Source of the DNA: a virus
Virus record (IMG/VR): IMGVR_UViG_3300044949_001160
Location: 1 to 39,042 of that record
DNA length: 39,042 nucleotides
Reading direction: 5' to 3' (one strand)
The position numbers and the translations under genes are program-made. The notes under the pieces are model-generated. The model had not been told where the DNA came from. It saw only the letters and a program-made list of their open reading frames with translations, and searched no databases. Shown here one piece after another: positions 3,354 to 38,670 of the stretch (position 1 is the stretch's first letter; each line of letters opens with the position of its first letter).

Positions 3354-3895
3354 GCTGCGACGCGAATGCCGTTGCAGTCAGCGGCACAAAAATCGATCGG
3401 GATGCGCTTTGGCCGCTTTACTTGTCCCAACACCCAGCGCGCAGGTATAACCCACACCTCGCTCGCAAAAGTGCAGGCAGCAAGGGACTGGATTTTTTCG
3501 GGCGACGGCGGGTTCTTGTGGACGATTTCTACGACGGCAGAAATTGTGCCCTTGTGCTGGATAGCTATATCGACAATCCAGCGAGGCGCTTTCCCGTAGT
3601 GCTCAATACACTCGTCGTACGTTGGGGGGCGGTGGCGCCAAGGACTGTCACTTAGATCCTCGCCGCTGCTAGGTATAGCAGTCTCATCCCATACGCAGCC
3701 GTCAGGTCCACCCCATCCAGGCCCCGGCATGATGGGATATTCTAGCCAAACACCCCAGCTAGGCCCGCCACGGTTTACGCGCCACGAAATACCTCCCAGG
3801 GAAGCGTATTCGCGCGCTTCGGATGCGACTTCACGCAGCCACCCGGCAAAGACCTCCTTGGCCGCCCGATGCGCGTAGCTTTCCAAGCCGCTCAC
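3350..3895 (-). CDS. CoiA-like/PD-(D/E)XK nuclease-like protein
   Basis: This 181-residue protein opens with ESYAHRAAKEVFAGWLR, similar to the ESxxH...K...W start of competence protein CoiA. It has a VDIAIQ...VVEIVHK block near the middle that looks like the D...ExV/K core of that nuclease-like fold. The GTG at 3895 follows GGGAGGT at good spacing. The gene is visibly less GC-rich than its neighbours, suggesting a recent acquisition. It could be a recombination nuclease, a defence protein or a remnant. The fold assignment is by motif reading only. Confidence 0.65.
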   Translation of the reverse strand: MSGLESYAHRAAKEVFAGWLREVASEAREYASLGGISWRVNRGGPSWGVWLEYPIMPGPGWGGPDGCVWDETAIPSSGEDLSDSPWRHRPPTYDECIEHYGKAPRWIVDIAIQHKGTISAVVEIVHKNPPSPEKIQSLAACTFASEVWVIPARWVLGQVKRPKRIPIDFCAADCNGIRVAA

Positions 3896-4503: not shown

Positions 4504-5283
4504 CTCCGGGATCTGCGGGACGACGGCGTTGCCGAAGGCTCGCAGACGGTCCACCCGAGCGGGAACCCCATGAGCCACTCGACCCACGTGGGGTTCAAGG
4601 CTCCACCCACTGCGTTCGGTAATTGCTCGCCCTTCTTGCCGCCCCCCCTCTGCGAGTAAGGGGTGGCATTCGGGTGCCGATAATCCCTCGCCGCTGGCGT
4701 TGGCCAGAGGCGGGCTGCTCCCGTTAAGGACAGGTTCTTGCCCTTGTAGCGCAGTGGCGCGCCTCTCCCATCGCCCGCGTCTGCCGCTACCGGCGTAGGC
4801 CACAATCCACAGTCGATCCCGCCTGTGAGGGGCGCCAAGGGCGGAAGCCGGAATGCAGTGCCACTCCGCATCATACCCGAGCGCGGCCAAGTCTCCGAGA
4901 ACGTCTCCAAACCCTCGCCAAAGAAGTGCTGCGACGTTTTCCACGATGACGAAACGGGGTCGTATCTCGCCAATAAGTCGGGCGTAATCGCGCCATAAAC
5001 CCGACCGCTCGCCGGCGAGTCCTGCTCCCTTGCCGGCAACGCTGATGTCCTGGCAGGGGAACCCTCCGCAAATGACATCCACGGAAATTCCGTCTGCTGC
5101 CAGTTGCTCGGCGGTGAGGGTTCGTACGTCATCGTAGATCGGCACTCCCGGCCAGTGTTTCGCCAGAACGGCGCGGCAGAACGGTTCGATTTCACAGAAC
5201 GCTGCCGTGGTCATGCCGGCCCGCTCCAGGCCAAGCGAGAACCTACCGATGCCGCTGAAGAGGTCGAGAACTTGGAGCGTCAT
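4456..5283 (-). CDS. dcm: DNA (cytosine-5) methyltransferase
   Basis: This 275-residue enzyme transfers a methyl group from SAM to cytosine C5. Motif I DLFSGIG is at 7-13, motif IV PCQ at 76-78 with catalytic C77, motif VI ENV at 115-117, motif VIII HRRDR at 153-157, and motif X GNAVVPQ lies near the C-terminus. The ATG at 5283 overlaps the previous stop in an ATGA. The target-recognition part is short. In a phage it most likely protects DNA from host restriction. A second long open frame lies inside it (separate entry). Confidence 0.95.
   Translation of the reverse strand: MTLQVLDLFSGIGRFSLGLERAGMTTAAFCEIEPFCRAVLAKHWPGVPIYDDVRTLTAEQLAADGISVDVICGGFPCQDISVAGKGAGLAGERSGLWRDYARLIGEIRPRFVIVENVAALLWRGFGDVLGDLAALGYDAEWHCIPASALGAPHRRDRLWIVAYAGSGRRGRWERRATALQGQEPVLNGSSPPLANASGEGLSAPECHPLLAEGGRQEGRAITERSGWSLEPHVGRVAHGVPARVDRLRAFGNAVVPQIPELIGRAILQAEARHAA
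4500..5078 (-). CDS. Overlapping frame inside the methyltransferase gene
   Basis: In another frame of the same strand, an ATG at 5078 opens 192 codons that cover motif IV to the end of the methyltransferase. The product has recurrent motifs I recognise from separately annotated phage proteins: ARTSALP, SSSWKTSQ, FSETWPRSGMMRSG, LWPTP and LNPTWVEWLMGFPLGW. Either a real protein is encoded in overlap, or these database proteins are themselves frame shadows of conserved methyltransferase DNA. No clear Shine-Dalgarno precedes the ATG. Confidence 0.3.
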   Translation of the reverse strand: MSFAEGSPARTSALPAREQDSPASGRVYGAITPDLLARYDPVSSSWKTSQHFFGEGLETFSETWPRSGMMRSGTAFRLPPLAPLTGGIDCGLWPTPVAADAGDGRGAPLRYKGKNLSLTGAARLWPTPAARDYRHPNATPYSQRGGGKKGEQLPNAVGGALNPTWVEWLMGFPLGWTVCEPSATPSSRRSRS

Positions 5284-5609: not shown

Positions 5610-6121
5610 ACAAACACCCCGCGCGCCCGCACCCGCGCCAGCGTCGCAAGCTGCTTCCGGGTGGGTTTCTCAGCGCGCGGCTTGGCCACGCGCGCCGGCT
5701 TCTTGGCGACTGGCACAGCCAGCATCCCGTCATGCCGCAGCGCCGCGACGCGCGCGCCGGCGAGGAGCGGAATGCCGTGCTGCTCCAGCACGTCCACGAG
5801 CTGCTCGACGCTTCGGACGACGGCGTATCCGTGGCCTAGCGCGGCCATGGCGGACTGCATGGAAAGCTGAACGTCGGACTGTTTGTTTGCGCCGGCCTTC
5901 AGCTCCAGCCAAACCGCGTAGCCCGGCGCCAGGATCAGCATGTCACCGATGCCGGCCTTCACGCCTTGGGCCTGGAGGCGCGTCCATTCGGCGGCGCGTT
6001 GCTGCGGCGTGCCTGCGTGTTTCCGGCCATGCTCAATTGACGTGAACCAGCACGGCGACGCCAGGTGGGACTTGAGGAGCATGGCGCAGCGGGCGCGCAG
6101 GCGTGCTTCGGGCTGGGCCAT
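5606..6121 (-). CDS. VRR-NUC domain nuclease
   Basis: This 171-residue protein has the small stand-alone phage form of the VRR-NUC fold (PF08774), a PD-(D/E)XK-type nuclease that in some families resolves branched DNA. The diagnostic stretch KAGIGDMLILAPGYAVWLEL is followed by KAG and a helix ending in GHGYAVVRSVEQL, giving the D...ExK core. A basic tail (KKPARVAKPRAEKPTRKQL) follows. The ATG at 6121 is in a TAATG overlap with the upstream stop and has AGAGGGTG before it. It probably processes replication or recombination intermediates. Confidence 0.88.
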   Translation of the reverse strand: MAQPEARLRARCAMLLKSHLASPCWFTSIEHGRKHAGTPQQRAAEWTRLQAQGVKAGIGDMLILAPGYAVWLELKAGANKQSDVQLSMQSAMAALGHGYAVVRSVEQLVDVLEQHGIPLLAGARVAALRHDGMLAVPVAKKPARVAKPRAEKPTRKQLATLARVRARGVFV

Positions 6122-6480
6122 TACCAGAAACACCCTCTGGCACCTTCAACTTCCCAGCTCACCGCCAACGGCCACGGCAACTCCTTCACCGCCTCGGCCA
6201 CCGTCGCCACGTCGCGCACCACCACGTCGCCGCTCGCGAGCCGCACCCGCACCCGGATCGGTGCATGGCCAGCCGGATCTGCGCCGGTGCGCTCGGCCTC
6301 AAGGCGGATCAGCCGCTCCAGGTAGGTGGCGAGGTCCAGCGCCTCCTCCTGCGCGTGCTTAAGCCATTGGCGCATCGTGAGTGGGTTGTCCGTCACGGAC
6401 ACGCCATACTTGGCAAGGCCAACCGCGGCGCGTCGGTGCAGCTCGGCGCAGAGAGTGGTGGTGATGGGATCGTCGGTCAT
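6121..6480 (-). CDS. MazG-like/phage nucleotide pyrophosphohydrolase-like protein
   Basis: This 119-residue protein has a KYGVSVTDNPLTMRQWLKHA then EEALDLATYLERLI block, typical of small phage proteins assigned to the all-alpha NTP pyrophosphohydrolase (MazG/dATP-dGTP diphosphohydrolase) group. The EExxD pair fits a metal site. It may tune nucleotide pools or alarmones during infection. The C-terminal half (VRVRLASGDVVVRD) is beta-rich and unexplained. The ATG at 6480 overlaps the upstream stop (ATGA). Confidence 0.7.
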   Translation of the reverse strand: MTDDPITTTLCAELHRRAAVGLAKYGVSVTDNPLTMRQWLKHAQEEALDLATYLERLIRLEAERTGADPAGHAPIRVRVRLASGDVVVRDVATVAEAVKELPWPLAVSWEVEGARGCFW

Positions 6481-7340
6481 GCAATGCCCTGAGATCGGCC
6501 GCGGCACGGATCGCAAAGACGGATGAACCTCCCTTGCGCCTCGAAACCGCGCTGGCAGGACAGGCACTTGCGGGCCACCATCTCCACGCGCACGATGTGC
6601 CGCGGTTCGGCGCGCACCTCTTTCTGCTCCAGCGTCGGCCGAGTTCCCGCCAAGCCGATCGGACGCCGCAGCCCTAGATCAGCCGCCCATTCGGACACGT
6701 AGCGAGTGCCCATGCCCGGCCCAGGCAGCTCGTTGATGTCGTTCGTGATGGCGATGACAGCGCGGCCTGCAGGCCAGTCGCGCACAAGGATTTCCTTGCG
6801 CGCGGCCGTGCGCCGGTCGCCCACCACAGCGCGCGTAGACAGGCCAAGGCGATGCGCCATCATGTAGACAGCCGCCGTCGTCCGCCCGATCTGCTGCGCG
6901 ATCACGTCGCACGTCACGCGGCCCGCCTGCGTGCGGAGCAATTCCAACTCGGCGTAGGACCATGGATCTATGGGCGGCGGAGGCCGACGCGGCACGTTGC
7001 GGTGTTTCAGCCCCAGGCGCGCCGCTTTGTTCTGCACGGCATTGACGCTGCGATGAAGCGCCTGCGCCATATCCTCATGCGTAAACTCGGGGCGCCGCCA
7101 GTATTCGCGCAGGCTGGCAACCTCCGCATCGGTCCAGTCGCGCGTGTCGCGGCGGTGTTGTCCCAGCGGAAAAGAGCCGGCGGAACACACAGTCCCGCCG
7201 GCCAAGTTTTCACGGGAGGTCACGCCAGCCACGCTGGCATCCCCACCGACACGCGCGGACAAACCGCGGCCCGCGTCGGTGGCACCGTGCAAAGGGTGGG
7301 AGCCTATTTCCGATCCGCGTTGCACAGTGATCTCGCTCAT
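6477..7340 (-). CDS. Multi-repeat DNA-binding protein with zinc knuckle
   Basis: This 287-residue protein has two SANT/Myb-like helix-turn-helix repeats, at about 68-112 (WTDAEVASLREYW ... VNAVQNKAARLGL) and 125-168 (WSYAELELLR ... TAAVYMMAHRLGL). A possible third unit lies at 187-228. The C-terminus has a CxxC...CxxC knuckle (C259, C262, C276, C279) like that seen in alphaproteobacterial phage and GcrA-related proteins. The first 65 residues are low complexity. It is likely a transcription regulator or specific DNA-binding protein of the early operon. ATGA overlaps link it to both neighbours. Confidence 0.75.
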   Translation of the reverse strand: MSEITVQRGSEIGSHPLHGATDAGRGLSARVGGDASVAGVTSRENLAGGTVCSAGSFPLGQHRRDTRDWTDAEVASLREYWRRPEFTHEDMAQALHRSVNAVQNKAARLGLKHRNVPRRPPPPIDPWSYAELELLRTQAGRVTCDVIAQQIGRTTAAVYMMAHRLGLSTRAVVGDRRTAARKEILVRDWPAGRAVIAITNDINELPGPGMGTRYVSEWAADLGLRRPIGLAGTRPTLEQKEVRAEPRHIVRVEMVARKCLSCQRGFEAQGRFIRLCDPCRGRSQGIA

Positions 7341-7594
7341 CGCGCGCTCCGCTCCTGGAGGCGGCGCCAGGCCGGGCCGGCAAGTTGCGCCACCAGCTGC
7401 CAGCCCTCCGCGCTCCGGCGGTGCATAACGATGATCTCATTCGTCGCACTGGCCGCGATGAGGTGCTTACTTTCGAACCCGTCGCGGTATCGCCAAATCC
7501 CGCCGAAGCGCGTTGCAACAACGGTCCAGTAACCGGGGCCTATCACGCTATCGTGCATGGGGGTGGAGGGGGTGCGGTGGTACACTTTGGTCAT
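7337..7594 (-). CDS. Small hypothetical protein
   Basis: This 85-residue protein has an aromatic beta-rich N-terminal half (YWTVVATRFGGIWRYRDGF) and a basic helical tail. No family is recognised. It is coupled by ATGA overlaps to the Cro-like gene upstream and the multi-repeat DNA-binding gene downstream. Confidence 0.65.
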   Translation of the reverse strand: MTKVYHRTPSTPMHDSVIGPGYWTVVATRFGGIWRYRDGFESKHLIAASATNEIIVMHRRSAEGWQLVAQLAGPAWRRLQERSAR

Positions 7595-9332: not shown

Positions 9333-9974
9333 ATGAACGCAATTTCCAAGGCGACAACCATCGCCATCAGCCCGCCAAACATGGCCGAACTTCACACCAC
9401 CATTATCGGCACGGCGCCGTTGATGATTGCGCGGTTCAGCCAGAAGTCGATGCAGGCCATGCTTGAGAAGCACGTTGCCGGTTCGCAGGCCAACAAGAAG
9501 AAAGCCAAAGTTGCGCGCGATCTGGACGCGGATTTCAACGGCGCGCGGCACATCAGCACGGACGGGTGGGACGGCATCCATGCCGGCGCTTTCCGGGCCG
9601 CCATGATCTCGGCATGCCGACTGGTGGGCTTCAAGATGACGCTCGCCAAGCTGTCGCTGTTTGTCCACGCGGACGGATACGATCGAGTCGACGCCACGCC
9701 GCTGGTTCGGATTGATGGCGGCGAGCCGGAGCGCAGCGAGATGCCGGTGCGCAATGCGACTGGAGTGATGGACATTCGCATTCGGCCAGTGTGGCGCGAA
9801 TGGAAGTGCCACCTCCGGCTGCGTTACGACGCGGATCAGTTTCAGGCTGCCGACGTGCTGAACCTGCTGGCGCGCGTCGGGATGCAAGTCGGCATCGGTG
9901 AAGGCCGGCCTGACTCGCGCGAAAGCGCCGGGATCGGGTTCGGGCTGTTCCGCATCGAAAGCGACGCGGGCTGA
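9333..9974 (+). CDS. Conserved phage protein with RAMP/Cas7-like features
   Basis: This 213-residue protein starts at ATG 9333 after AAGGAAAG. Three blocks recall RAMP/Cas7-type RNA-binding folds: an opening strand IIGTAPLMIARFS (24-36), GIHAGAFRAAMISACRL (81-97) resembling the RAMP 'IPGSSLKGALR' region, and a C-terminal VLNLLARVGMQVGIGEGRP (175-193) followed by a Gly-rich loop GIGFGLF (200-206). The same kind of protein occurs in other phages as a hypothetical. It heads a cassette with a YqaJ-type exonuclease and lies directly 5' of the pentanucleotide array. A strand-annealing or RNA-binding role is possible. The fold assignment is by eye. Confidence 0.72.
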   Translation: MNAISKATTIAISPPNMAELHTTIIGTAPLMIARFSQKSMQAMLEKHVAGSQANKKKAKVARDLDADFNGARHISTDGWDGIHAGAFRAAMISACRLVGFKMTLAKLSLFVHADGYDRVDATPLVRIDGGEPERSEMPVRNATGVMDIRIRPVWREWKCHLRLRYDADQFQAADVLNLLARVGMQVGIGEGRPDSRESAGIGFGLFRIESDAG

Positions 9975-9981
9975 GAATGTG

Positions 9982-10338
9982 GGCAACGCACGGCTGGCGC
10001 GGCTTGGCATGGCGAGGCTAGGCAAGGCACGACACTGCAGGCGAGGCGAGGCGCGTGGCTGGGTTTGGCAGCGCAGGCAAGTCGAGGCACGGCGGGGCCG
10101 CATGTGGCCGGATTTAGCACCGCGAGGCAGGCGAGACGCGGCCGGGCATGGCGAGGCCAGGCTTGGCACGGCGAGGCACCGCAGGCCACGCATGGCGAGG
10201 CGGGCCTCGGCAAGGCACGGCGGCATCTGGCGAGGTTTGGCAGGCGTGGCGCGGCAAGGCGCGGCGAGGCACGGCTGGGCCCGGCGACGCGTCGCAGGCG
10301 AGGCACGGCGCCGATTGGCAAGGCCGGGCATGGCCGGC
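9982..10338 (+). repeat. Degenerate pentanucleotide (NNGGC) array
   Basis: This 357-base non-coding stretch is built of units of five bases whose last three are GGC and whose first two vary (GA, AC, AA, AT, GC, TT, CG, CA and others). I count 56 GGC trinucleotides. Unbroken runs at exact 5-base spacing occur at 9996-10028, 10140-10177 and 10243-10285; elsewhere one-base slips or single substitutions (CGC, TGC, GAC, GGT) break phase. It occupies the only large gap in an otherwise overlapping operon and is co-oriented with it, so it should be transcribed. All six frames stay largely open because the units rarely make stops. None has coding evidence. Confidence 0.88.
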
Positions 10339-10361
10339 AACAACACAAATCAGGAGGCTGA

Positions 10362-10826
10362 ATGAACGGACTATCCGCAGCAGCACGCGCTGAGCTTGAA
10401 GCACTCCGCGCCGAGAAAGGCGGCAACTTGATCCCTGCCGACGTGGTGGAGCAGGCTCGCAGCCAAAACAGCGCACTCCACCGCTACTTCGAATGGGACG
10501 ACACGGAAGCCGCCGCGAAGTATCGCGAACAGCAAGCGCGCGGTGTCATCCGTGCAGTGGTGCGCTTCTTGCCCAACGCCAGCGGCTACCCGGTTTCGGT
10601 GCGCGCCTATGTGTCGCTGCCAGCCGATCGGGAAGCACGCGCCGGCTATCGCGCGGTGGCTGACGTAATGGACGATGACGCGCTGGCGGCGCAGGCGTTG
10701 CAGGCTTTCGAGGCCGACGTGATCCGCTTGCAGGCCAAGTATGGCGTGTATGCCACCATCCGGCCGACGATTGCTGAGGCTGTGAGCGAGATGCGTCGCG
10801 TGCTGGCGCCGGCGGTGGCAGCGTGA
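10362..10826 (+). CDS. Conserved phage protein of recombination cassette
   Basis: This 154-residue protein starts at ATG 10362 after CAGGAGGCTGA, an excellent ribosome site, as expected for a restart after the non-coding array. It contains VVEQARSQNSALHRYFEWDD and AAAKYREQQARGVIRAVV, features I associate with a conserved hypothetical family next to phage exonucleases. It ends in a GTGA overlap with the exonuclease. The function is unknown. Confidence 0.75.
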   Translation: MNGLSAAARAELEALRAEKGGNLIPADVVEQARSQNSALHRYFEWDDTEAAAKYREQQARGVIRAVVRFLPNASGYPVSVRAYVSLPADREARAGYRAVADVMDDDALAAQALQAFEADVIRLQAKYGVYATIRPTIAEAVSEMRRVLAPAVAA

Positions 10827-35786: not shown

Positions 35787-37030
35787 GGCGTCGTCTCCTG
35801 CGGCGCGGCCGGCTGGATCTGCGGCAGCGGCCCGGCCGGCTCGCGGCTCATGTTCAGCTTGGCGCGCGCTTCCTCGACGGTGATGAACGCCGGCTCACCG
35901 GCACGGCCCAGGCCGATGCGCAGCGCCTCCATCATCGCTTTCGTGTCGCCGCGCTCCAGCTCGGTGGTGTCGAACTCGGCCACGCGGCCGACATTGCGGA
36001 AGAACTTGCGGTTGATCTCATTCTGAAAGGCATTCAGGTGGTCACGCAGCGCGAAGCGCACGAACCCCTTGCCCATCGCCTCGATGCCGGTGCCCCAGGA
36101 GGTGTTGCCTTCCGTGTGGCCGATCATCCAAGCCGGCACGCCATAGACGCGCGCGATCTCCTCGACCTGGAACTTGCGCGTCTCCAGCAGCTGCATCTCT
36201 TCCAGCGGCATCGTCAGGGCCTCGATCGACAGGCCACCTTCCAGGATCATCGGCTTGCCGCCGTTGAGCGGGCCCTGATACCGCTCCAGCATCTCGCGCA
36301 GCCGATCTACCTGCGCTTGCGTCAGGTTGCCCGCCGCCTTCAGCGCGTAGTCAGGCCGCGCCATGTTCTCCAGGAACCGCGACGAAAAATCCTGCGCGCT
36401 GATCGCCAGCCGGCCGGACACCCGCAGCGCGTGCTTAAGCGGCGACAGGCCGCGCAGCCCGTTGAACCCGAAACCCGGCACGTGCAGCACGTCGTCCTGA
36501 TCGAGCACGCGCATCCGCGTGGCTTCCGGCGCCGGGCTTTCGATCGTGCGATCCGGCTGGATCTCGTAGACAAGCCGCGCGCCGTCCGGCGTGGCGATCA
36601 CGCGCACGCGATTGGGGTGGATCGGCACCAGCCCCGCCACGCGCCCACCGGACCCGCGCAGGATCTCGGCGAACCCGTCGCCGTGCAGCAGCTTCGAGCC
36701 CACCAGAAACGACCAGCCCGCCGACGCGGCCCAGCGCGGACAGAATTGCTCGTTGAGCGTCCACCACAGATCGGCGTTCATGTCGCGCGACAGATCGCCA
36801 TCCGGCGCGCGGCGGTAGATGTGCATCGGCAGCGCCGCGATGGCGCCGGCGATCAACTGGACGCAGGCATACACGGCCGACACCGACAGCGCCGCCTGCT
36901 CGCTCGGCGCGCCCGTCTGCCCGCCGAACGCCGTCAGGCTTTCCCACACGCCATTCCCGCGGCGGATGTCGGAGCTGTCCACCGCGTTACGCGGCGCGAT
37001 CTTAGCCGCAAGCCATGTGCGCCAACTCAT
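35783..37030 (-). CDS. Portal protein, HK97 family
   Basis: This 415-residue portal (PF04860) forms the 12-fold ring for DNA entry. Landmarks are LSVSAVYACVQLIAGAIAAL, LPMHIYRRAPDG, QDFSSRFLENMARPDYALKA and QVEEIARVYGVPAWMIGH. It overlaps the TerL stop (ATGA) and the protease start. Confidence 0.95.
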   Translation of the reverse strand: MSWRTWLAAKIAPRNAVDSSDIRRGNGVWESLTAFGGQTGAPSEQAALSVSAVYACVQLIAGAIAALPMHIYRRAPDGDLSRDMNADLWWTLNEQFCPRWAASAGWSFLVGSKLLHGDGFAEILRGSGGRVAGLVPIHPNRVRVIATPDGARLVYEIQPDRTIESPAPEATRMRVLDQDDVLHVPGFGFNGLRGLSPLKHALRVSGRLAISAQDFSSRFLENMARPDYALKAAGNLTQAQVDRLREMLERYQGPLNGGKPMILEGGLSIEALTMPLEEMQLLETRKFQVEEIARVYGVPAWMIGHTEGNTSWGTGIEAMGKGFVRFALRDHLNAFQNEINRKFFRNVGRVAEFDTTELERGDTKAMMEALRIGLGRAGEPAFITVEEARAKLNMSREPAGPLPQIQPAAPQETTP

Positions 37031-38670
37031 AGGAACAGCACCCGCGGCTCAATCGACACCGGCGCGCGCGCCATCAGCTCGACAGCGTTGAACGTGGCCA
37101 TCAGCGGGTCGATCTTGGCCGAGCCGCTCGCCTGCTTCGTGATCAGCATGGCGTTTCCTTTCGGCTCAACCTTCGCGTTGCCCGCGCACCAAGCCATCAG
37201 CGACTGCCCGGCATGCACCAGCGAATCCTCTGCCAGCTTGCGCTCCGTCAGCTTGATTGCGCCGCCCAGACGCCACCCCTGCGACACCGCAGCCATTTGA
37301 TCGGCGGTGAAGCCGGCCGCTGTGAGCGCATCCACGACGGCGTGACTGTTGCCGGGGTCGATACCGATCCCGTGCTTCTCCGGCAGCAGGCCGGCCGCGT
37401 TCACCTCGGCGCAGATGCTCACCAAATCGTCCAGATCCTGGCCGACACGCTCAACGATGCGCAGATCGCCGGCCGCAGCGAAGTCGCGCAGCCGCGGCGC
37501 CTCACTCTGCCGACGCTTCAGCACCACCGGATGCGCCCAGGCGTAATTCCACGTGAGCCAGCGGCCCGTCTTGCGCTCGCGGCCAACCACTGCGAAGCCG
37601 AGCAAGTCGTCCAGGCCGCCGCCGTCTATGCCGATCGTCACCACGTCCGAAGCCGCCAGAACCGCCGACAGCGTGAGAGCCGGCTCGGCCTGGCGCTCCC
37701 AGTATTCAGCGCCGGCCCAGCCGTCCGATTTCAGCGCCAGACCCACCTCGACGTTGAGGTGCTGGGAGGCCCAGCGGCGGACCTCCTCCGGCCCTGCCGC
37801 CTGAGCGGCTTCCCAATCCGGCACTAGCCGATCGGTGGTGATGCTGAACCCGTTGTTTGGCGTGACAATGTGCCAGTTGGCCGGCTCGCGCCAATCCATG
37901 CCGTCCGGGAACTCATACAGCAGCGGCAGTAACGGCGCCGCAAGCCGCCCGTCCCGCACCGCGCGAGCCTTTTGCAGCTCGGCCTTGAACACGCCGGACG
38001 GTGGCCGCTCCGATTGCGTCGTGATCGTCAGCAGGAATGCCTCGGGCTGGCTGATCATGCCGCCGCGAAGCTGGCCAATGACGCGATCCGCATCCGGCGC
38101 CTCAGCGATCACGTGCAGCTCGTCCAGCAGCACGCCCGCCGGCTTGGAGCCGGTGACGATCTTCGGATCGAAGCTCTTCACCTTCAGAAACGCGCCAGTC
38201 GGCCGGTAGACGATGGTGCGGATGTGGTCCCGCACATGGAACTTGGCCGCCAGCACCGGATCGGCCTCGATCATCCCGACAGCCTGCCGAAACGCCAGCG
38301 CGGACACTTCTTGCGTCGGCGCCACCAGCAGGAACTCGGCGCGCGGGCGCCGGTTCATCAGCAGCGCCGTCACCATGATCGCCGCGCCGCCCGTCGTCTT
38401 GGCGTTTTTCTTCGGAACCAAGGTGAAGAACTCGCGGATGTGCCGCTCTTCACCGTCCCAGGAGCCAAACACCGCGCGCACCAGATCGCGCTGCCACTCG
38501 CCGGCACCCTCGGCCATCGTCGGCTGGCCCGGCACATCCGGCAGGCGCAGCGCATTGAAGATCGCCACCGCACGCGCCGCCGCCGCTTTGTCCAGCGGCA
38601 CGGACGGCACCAGCGAGCGACCGGCACGCAGCCGCGCCACCCAGTCCGGGCAGGCGGTGCTCCACGTCAC
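37027..38670 (-). CDS. terL: Terminase large subunit
   Basis: This 547-residue packaging motor and nuclease is of the HK97-like terminase family (PF03354/PF20441). Walker A-like VPKKNAKTT is at 85-93 and Walker B VLLDEL at 180-185 (D183, E184). A nuclease-type acidic TIGIDGGGLDD segment lies near the middle. It starts with GTG in a GTGA overlap with TerS. Together with HNH it cuts concatemers at cos. Confidence 0.95.
   Translation of the reverse strand: MTWSTACPDWVARLRAGRSLVPSVPLDKAAAARAVAIFNALRLPDVPGQPTMAEGAGEWQRDLVRAVFGSWDGEERHIREFFTLVPKKNAKTTGGAAIMVTALLMNRRPRAEFLLVAPTQEVSALAFRQAVGMIEADPVLAAKFHVRDHIRTIVYRPTGAFLKVKSFDPKIVTGSKPAGVLLDELHVIAEAPDADRVIGQLRGGMISQPEAFLLTITTQSERPPSGVFKAELQKARAVRDGRLAAPLLPLLYEFPDGMDWREPANWHIVTPNNGFSITTDRLVPDWEAAQAAGPEEVRRWASQHLNVEVGLALKSDGWAGAEYWERQAEPALTLSAVLAASDVVTIGIDGGGLDDLLGFAVVGRERKTGRWLTWNYAWAHPVVLKRRQSEAPRLRDFAAAGDLRIVERVGQDLDDLVSICAEVNAAGLLPEKHGIGIDPGNSHAVVDALTAAGFTADQMAAVSQGWRLGGAIKLTERKLAEDSLVHAGQSLMAWCAGNAKVEPKGNAMLITKQASGSAKIDPLMATFNAVELMARAPVSIEPRVLFL

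Follow-up and report, generated by a model that had tools for sequence, protein, structure and literature searches.

Among the systems described to date, the closest comparison for the locus considered here is VIPR (Viral Interference Programmable Repeat), a CRISPR-like, RNA-guided system presented in a preprint in April 2026 (PMC13142463). According to the main text of that preprint, Vipr is an ancestral RAMP, and its guide RNAs alternate GGY and NN; only the NN dinucleotides pair with the target DNA, and one base is skipped between them (PMC13142463). VIPR is found there mostly in phages and prophages, with satellites and other prophages among the targets; seven types are distinguished, and the published vrRNA modules comprise 9–16 units (PMC13142463). 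The locus analyzed here lies in a 39,042-nt stretch of viral DNA (IMG/VR record IMGVR_UViG_3300044949_001160), called the window below, and is of this already described kind. A first-pass annotation, made from the letters alone, stated that no described system had this layout, which has been outdated since April 2026 (PMC13142463); a system published months ago was recovered independently from raw sequence. As far as the preprint describes type II (Escherichia phage SUSP1, Pseudomonas fulva prophage), both that type and the window locus contain a phage-borne Vipr RAMP homologue, intergenic GGY/NN guide repeats flanking the gene, and a one-base-skip target code with the skips at wobble positions (PMC13142463). 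The differences are that the window guides are placed head to tail in one array with AGGC marks between them, that type II vrRNA has a structured 3′ tail whereas none was seen after each window guide, and that type II is directed at a satellite or a lysogeny regulator, whereas the putative target in the window is a motif of a recombination gene (PMC13142463). Multi-guide arrays like that of the window are described for other VIPR types, “staggered” or hammerhead-interspersed (PMC13142463); in contrast to the latter, no Rfam family, including hammerhead, was found in the window, and the same was true for nine related loci. Class 1 CRISPR-Cas systems (Csm3/Cas7 effectors) have the RAMP fold in common with the window system and likewise use guides parted by short repeated marks and a periodically interrupted pairing, but their period is 6 nt, whereas that of the window is 5 nt, with a discontinuous, phage-encoded guide. 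The long identical repeats of a CRISPR array were absent from the window, no other Cas protein was found among the neighbouring proteins scanned, and a PADLOC scan of the Vipr family gave no significant Cas model, weak single matches only. TIGR-Tas, as outlined in its published description, is likewise a phage-encoded guide array with one protein, but this protein is Tas, not a RAMP, and the array differs.

The array occupies positions 9975–10361, between the 213-aa ORF (9333–9974) and the 154-aa ORF (10362–10826). As was noticed at first, this is the only sizeable gap in a compact plus-strand operon, in which the flanking ORFs touch or overlap, and the array is co-oriented with it. Direct counting gives 57 GGC within these 387 nt instead of the 56 initially reported, while the three long in-phase runs hold, with 7 (9996), 8 (10140), and 9 (10243) units; the runs in shuffled sequences never exceeded 5. 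There are 33 GGC pairs at exactly 5 nt, compared with a mean of 2.3 and a maximum of 8 in 2000 dinucleotide shuffles. The NN-GGC array is present only on the plus strand, and it is the sole array of such kind in the window. The strong ribosome-binding site recognized after it, AGGAGG (10352–10357, plus strand), indeed precedes the ATG of the next gene at 10362. All sense frames of the array are nearly open because its unit rarely makes a stop; a translated repeat peptide was considered and rejected, as no start or ribosome site of the array’s own was seen. Literature searches on the repeat itself and on the sequence GGCAAGGC yielded no relevant entry. Judging from its position, and by analogy with published relatives, the array is presumably transcribed in the window phage. 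The vrRNA guide array proper (9990–10338, plus strand) consists of NN-GGC units in 5-nt phase, adjoining vipr in tandem and arranged in seven modules of 6–11 units, six of them readable, parted by nine-base marks on the same strand: ACGGCTGGC, a variant (9990–9998), ACTGCAGGC (10034–10042), AGCGCAGGC (10070–10078), GAGGCAGGC (10124–10132), ACCGCAGGC (10178–10186), TTGGCAGGC (10237–10245), GTCGCAGGC (10291–10299), and the terminal variant ATGGCCGGC (10330–10338), followed by AACAAC. The modules between these marks measure 35, 27 (broken), 45, 45, 50, 45, and 30 nt. Nothing resembling the structured SUSP1 tail was seen between the window guides; solely the end of the array resembles other sequences, namely the array ends of two related loci (L030 and L034).

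The gene preceding the array (vipr, 9333–9974, plus strand; phrog_4652) had been described as RAMP/Cas7-like, which structural modelling confirmed. Homologues of its 213-aa product were gathered from IMG/VR (72 loci) and from named phages (31 records). A profile of 104 relatives gave one strong match in the PDB, 36pp, the “SUSP1 Vipr protein” (E 1.4e-33), and the single sequence compared with SUSP1 Vipr by phmmer gave E 0.004 over the G-loop region. The AlphaFold2 model built on 104 relatives reached a pLDDT of 94.3, and its best structural matches are Csm3/Cas7 subunits (9g9g_I, Csm complex, Z 11.8, 151 residues aligned, 3.6 Å). Based on the profile, the model, and the conserved motif GxQVGIGExRP, the protein is assigned to the Vipr family as a compact RAMP homologue with a G-loop and a predicted Csm3/Cas7 fold. 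Since the gene belongs to the Vipr family, the locus is a VIPR system.

The targets of the array were searched for in IMG/VR by the published one-base-skip rule, with eight-dinucleotide cores of five guides (1, 3, 4, 5, and 6). Judged by sequence matching, the strongest new result is the target match of guide 5 (10187–10236, plus strand), which reads CA AT GA GG TC AA AC GG CT GA, with TT of the mark in addition. Its core matched at least 120 contigs in IMG/VR, and the matches retrieved all read a single motif, QI[DE]GSKTG[LR]E, in which the bases passed over coincide with wobble positions; three members of the target family tested correspond to phrog_124, Sak4-like ssDNA annealing protein (E 2e-43 to 4e-38). 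Among the matches listed, the GA dinucleotide lying outside the search core fits in 120/120, and all eleven dinucleotides (11/11 NN, 22 bases) are matched in 13 contigs, whereas the control with the dinucleotides in reversed order gave 4 stretches. A self target of guide 5 was also sought in the window, and no comparable site was found, the best reaching 14/22. A one-base-skip NN match to a DNA target is secure for guide 5 only among the window guides, and it represents a clear positive for the one-base-skip code, the central VIPR claim, as tested in a separate clade. Three of the loci (L347, L366, and L371) combine their own Vipr gene with the Sak4 site that guide 5 matches, and mutual targeting is possible there.

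It is very probable that the locus works as a VIPR system, with Vipr acting on vrRNA guides from the array by gapped, one-base-skip pairing with DNA, and with guide 5 directed against the Sak4-like gene of competitors. In this mechanism, the array downstream of vipr would be transcribed into guide RNAs (vrRNAs), on which the 213-aa Vipr would polymerize, one subunit holding one GGC scaffold. The two variable bases of each five-base unit would constitute the guide, pairing discontinuously with double-stranded DNA so that two bases are read and one is skipped, the skipped base of the target falling on the codon wobble position. The guide 5 complex would then bind and repress the Sak4-like recombination gene of competing phages or prophages; since the motif spelled by guide 5 is conserved in the Sak4-like gene of other phages, competitors would be repressed. 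The family and fold of the protein, the array with its guide and mark grammar, the family-wide association, and the guide 5 match were observed in this analysis, whereas transcription, RNP assembly, DNA binding, and repression are proposed by analogy with published relatives. The idea of the first-pass annotation that array RNA serves as a platform for a RAMP protein with a short fixed footprint stands in kind, given that the family co-purifies with GGY/NN RNAs in SUSP1 and P. fulva, as stated in the preprint (PMC13142463), and that array and gene co-occur widely, but it overlooked the message, a gapped guide, in the two variable bases. The possibility that the VIPR locus has decayed and no longer makes useful guides is unlikely, but it has some basis. 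The array is partly degenerate and may be partly decayed, because guide 2 (10043–10069, plus strand), a broken module of 27 nt, is out of phase, and CAT, GCC, GTC, and GAT stand in several places instead of the GGC scaffold triplet. However, the vipr product is intact and has a confident model, and guide 5 can still be decoded where it runs through units with degenerate scaffolds (GGGCC, GGCAT). An autoregulatory or structural platform, in which Vipr would cover the GGC repeats in the vipr mRNA to control or protect this transcript while NN carries no information, would agree with the RNA-binding fold of the protein and with arrays that are sense-strand and adjoin vipr; it is nevertheless very improbable, as 11 consecutive dinucleotides of guide 5 spell a conserved coding motif in 13 contigs, with the reversed order at background, and the modules are punctuated at regular spacing.

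The relation of the array to the Vipr protein was also analyzed across phages. A blind pattern search of IMG/VR for nine phased GGCs, with no gene reference, returned at least 120 loci. Among the 120 pattern loci listed, Vipr was found by an iterated profile in 83, or 86 counting open-ended frames, while the same profile matches 3/216 control loci fetched with unrelated patterns; BLAST with the window 213-aa protein alone detected Vipr in 33 of the 120 listed. The array lies on the strand of vipr in 154/157 cases, often within 5–20 bases of the gene. It had been argued that homologous phages lacking the array would sink the idea of a system; most Vipr homologues from the IMG/VR collection (72 loci) carry arrays, which favours it. 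The pairing of array and vipr is general and specific, and it extends across many otherwise unrelated phages. Arrays missed by the strict GGC filter emerge when plain five-base periodicity is scored, including those of Mycobacterium phage Donkeykong, Gordonia phage UmaThurman, and Cyanophage Cy-LDV1. In these three, a Vipr homologue annotated as hypothetical protein is accompanied by an unannotated, intergenic, punctuated array (L196, about 3560–3810; L195, about 4590–4880; L194, about 7430–7570, respectively); the Donkeykong array adjoins gp49. Since Donkeykong and its relatives, as well as UmaThurman, are well-studied phages with easy hosts and have arrays of the same form, a direct experiment is feasible. 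The YqaJ-type exonuclease that had been placed next to the array was correctly identified (Pfam PF09588, E 2e-11), but one other gene lies between it and the array; YqaJ was rejected as the partner of the array, being present in 10 of the 120 pattern loci listed versus 83 for the RAMP. Very long arrays, of 0.8–1.7 kb and containing some 150 to over 200 GGC units, were found in L126 (1927–3583), L070 (downstream of vipr), and L005 (upstream of vipr), and they could hold 15–30 guides. The scaffold triplet differs in two arrays beside Vipr homologues, NN-GTC in L256 (about 5745–6270) and NN-CGC in L050 (about 6630–7005), the latter with AGGC marks kept. The loci L179, L180, L139, L134, and L085 contain uniform pentanucleotide repeats without Vipr, which fit the search pattern and are ordinary simple repeats.

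The composition and punctuation of these arrays bear on the nature of the repeat. The third scaffold base is C in 93% and T in 7%, and NN is broadly spread (508 distinct runs), which gives a conserved GGY and a hypervariable NN, as in VIPR. Guide tracts are parted where the repeat slips to a unit of four bases, and because this unit is AGGC in 341/370 slips (92%), it is regarded as a mark and not as random slippage. In 84 near-clade arrays, 549 marks were found, with the commonest spacings of 49, 54, 44, 59, 39, and 64 nt, equal to 5n+4; many of these arrays begin and end with a mark, and the modules across the family have mostly 7–16 units. Decoding the family gives about 750 guide modules. 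An expanded simple repeat or a recombination hot spot with no RNA function, the latter suggested at first and having gained no support, is highly improbable: 5 of the 34 listed pattern loci without Vipr are uniform one-unit repeats, but otherwise successive units differ in NN, the arrays keep a fixed orientation with respect to vipr, and slippage would not yield AGGC in most four-base slips. The earlier proposal of a G-quadruplex regulatory element likewise gained no support and has a negligible probability, since GG at each five bases allows a two-tier form on paper, but a quadruplex does not need the prevailing C at the third base, and the NN-GTC and NN-CGC arrays beside Vipr are without GG pairs.

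The other guides of the VIPR array in the window gave less distinct results, and a secure target is lacking for six of the seven. Guide 3 (10079–10123, plus strand; AA GA AC GG CG GT CG TT AC) has 26 core-matching stretches in IMG/VR, and 9/9 of its dinucleotides fit the motif KDTGRVRLT of a Sak-like annealing protein (phrog_659, E 1e-61) in four related contigs. Guide 1 (9999–10033, plus strand; GC TT AT GA TA AA AC, with AC of the mark) has 13 such stretches, and its weak candidate target, matched in two contigs, is the IDYKT motif (ALIDYKTT) of exonuclease VIII (phrog_412, E 6e-61). Both matches could be due to chance, because each search gave several unrelated clusters; they are counted as suggestive because the function is shared, and these sequence matches weakly suggest that guides 1 and 3 are aimed at other recombination genes. 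For guide 4 (10133–10177, plus strand; GA GC CG AT GA CA TT AC GA) and guide 6 (10246–10290, plus strand; GT GC AA GC GA AC TG CC GA), with 12 and 41 stretches, respectively, no convincing target was found in IMG/VR, the matches being chance-like and stopping short of the adjoining dinucleotides. One group of about 30 related contigs matched by guide 6 (L197, 6325–6624, and similar) was judged to be chance, as it extends in 0/6 bases; it represents a small phage protein family with a GQVSAFAT motif, eight dinucleotides being matched on the opposite strand. Guide 7 (10300–10329, plus strand; GA AC GC TT AA CG), with six units, is too short to search. The guides of all other loci, the window excluded, were also compared over eight NN with 220 newly fetched loci, which were fetched largely for guide 5 matches so that the targets are not a random sample, and skip 1 gave 22 hits from 8 guides, whereas permuted guides gave 1–4 hits and other skips 1–4. 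Twelve of the 22 hits come from one L002 guide reading IAPTGAGKT, which is a Walker A motif in a gene close to Sak4. Cross-targeting among the first approximately 200 loci at skip 1 was not above the permuted control, and two guides of L252 had no target matches in 266 genomes of Bradyrhizobium, the host genus of this related locus. Natural targets can probably be detected only if sequences of the right competitors are available.

Beyond the published system, the analysis contributes a family-wide quantification of the AGGC-punctuated layout, scaffold triplets that are degenerate but preserve phase and code, and the proposal that conserved motifs in the recombination genes of competitors are what the guides aim at; neither a family-wide mark nor this class of targets appears in the main text of PMC13142463. 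The full proposal is that in a punctuated VIPR architecture the nine-base mark NNNGC-AGGC is the counterpart of the CRISPR repeat, setting interchangeable guides of 5n nt apart from each other, and that these guides are directed at recombination and replication motifs of other phages that evolve slowly (Sak4-like, possibly Sak-like annealing protein, exonuclease VIII, helicase-like Walker A), so that a single guide, through wobble skipping, would serve against an entire gene family. Taken together, these elements form a tentative model, with chances slightly below even. It suggests that guides act on protein motifs and that, by ignoring wobble bases, every phage with the conserved recombination gene is reachable. 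Because guide 5 spells a motif of a recombination gene in many other phages, the window phage probably silences competitors; that silencing of their recombination genes is the purpose of the system is an evenly balanced proposition.

The gene following the array (10362–10826, plus strand; phrog_15946) codes for a 154-aa protein and is a constant neighbour of vipr, lying on its strand in 96/96 loci, mostly abutting it or with only the array between; it is present in 67/72 near loci. This candidate vap (vipr-accessory) gene probably encodes the VIPR accessory protein of the clade. The model of the protein has a pLDDT of 93.8; no fold was assigned because the best match in a PDB fold search had E 0.9, which is not confident, and just three confident matches of the protein were obtained, to unnamed or uncharacterised viral proteins. 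With regard to the replicons carrying such loci, a Rhodoplanes serenus “plasmid” (L257, NZ_LR026982.1) has a Vipr homologue and, as it encodes capsid, head, and tape-measure proteins, is probably a phage-plasmid. The large terminase of the window, encoded at 37027–38670 on the minus strand, shares about 50% identity with its counterparts in Microcystis, Pseudanabaena, and Enterobacteria phages.
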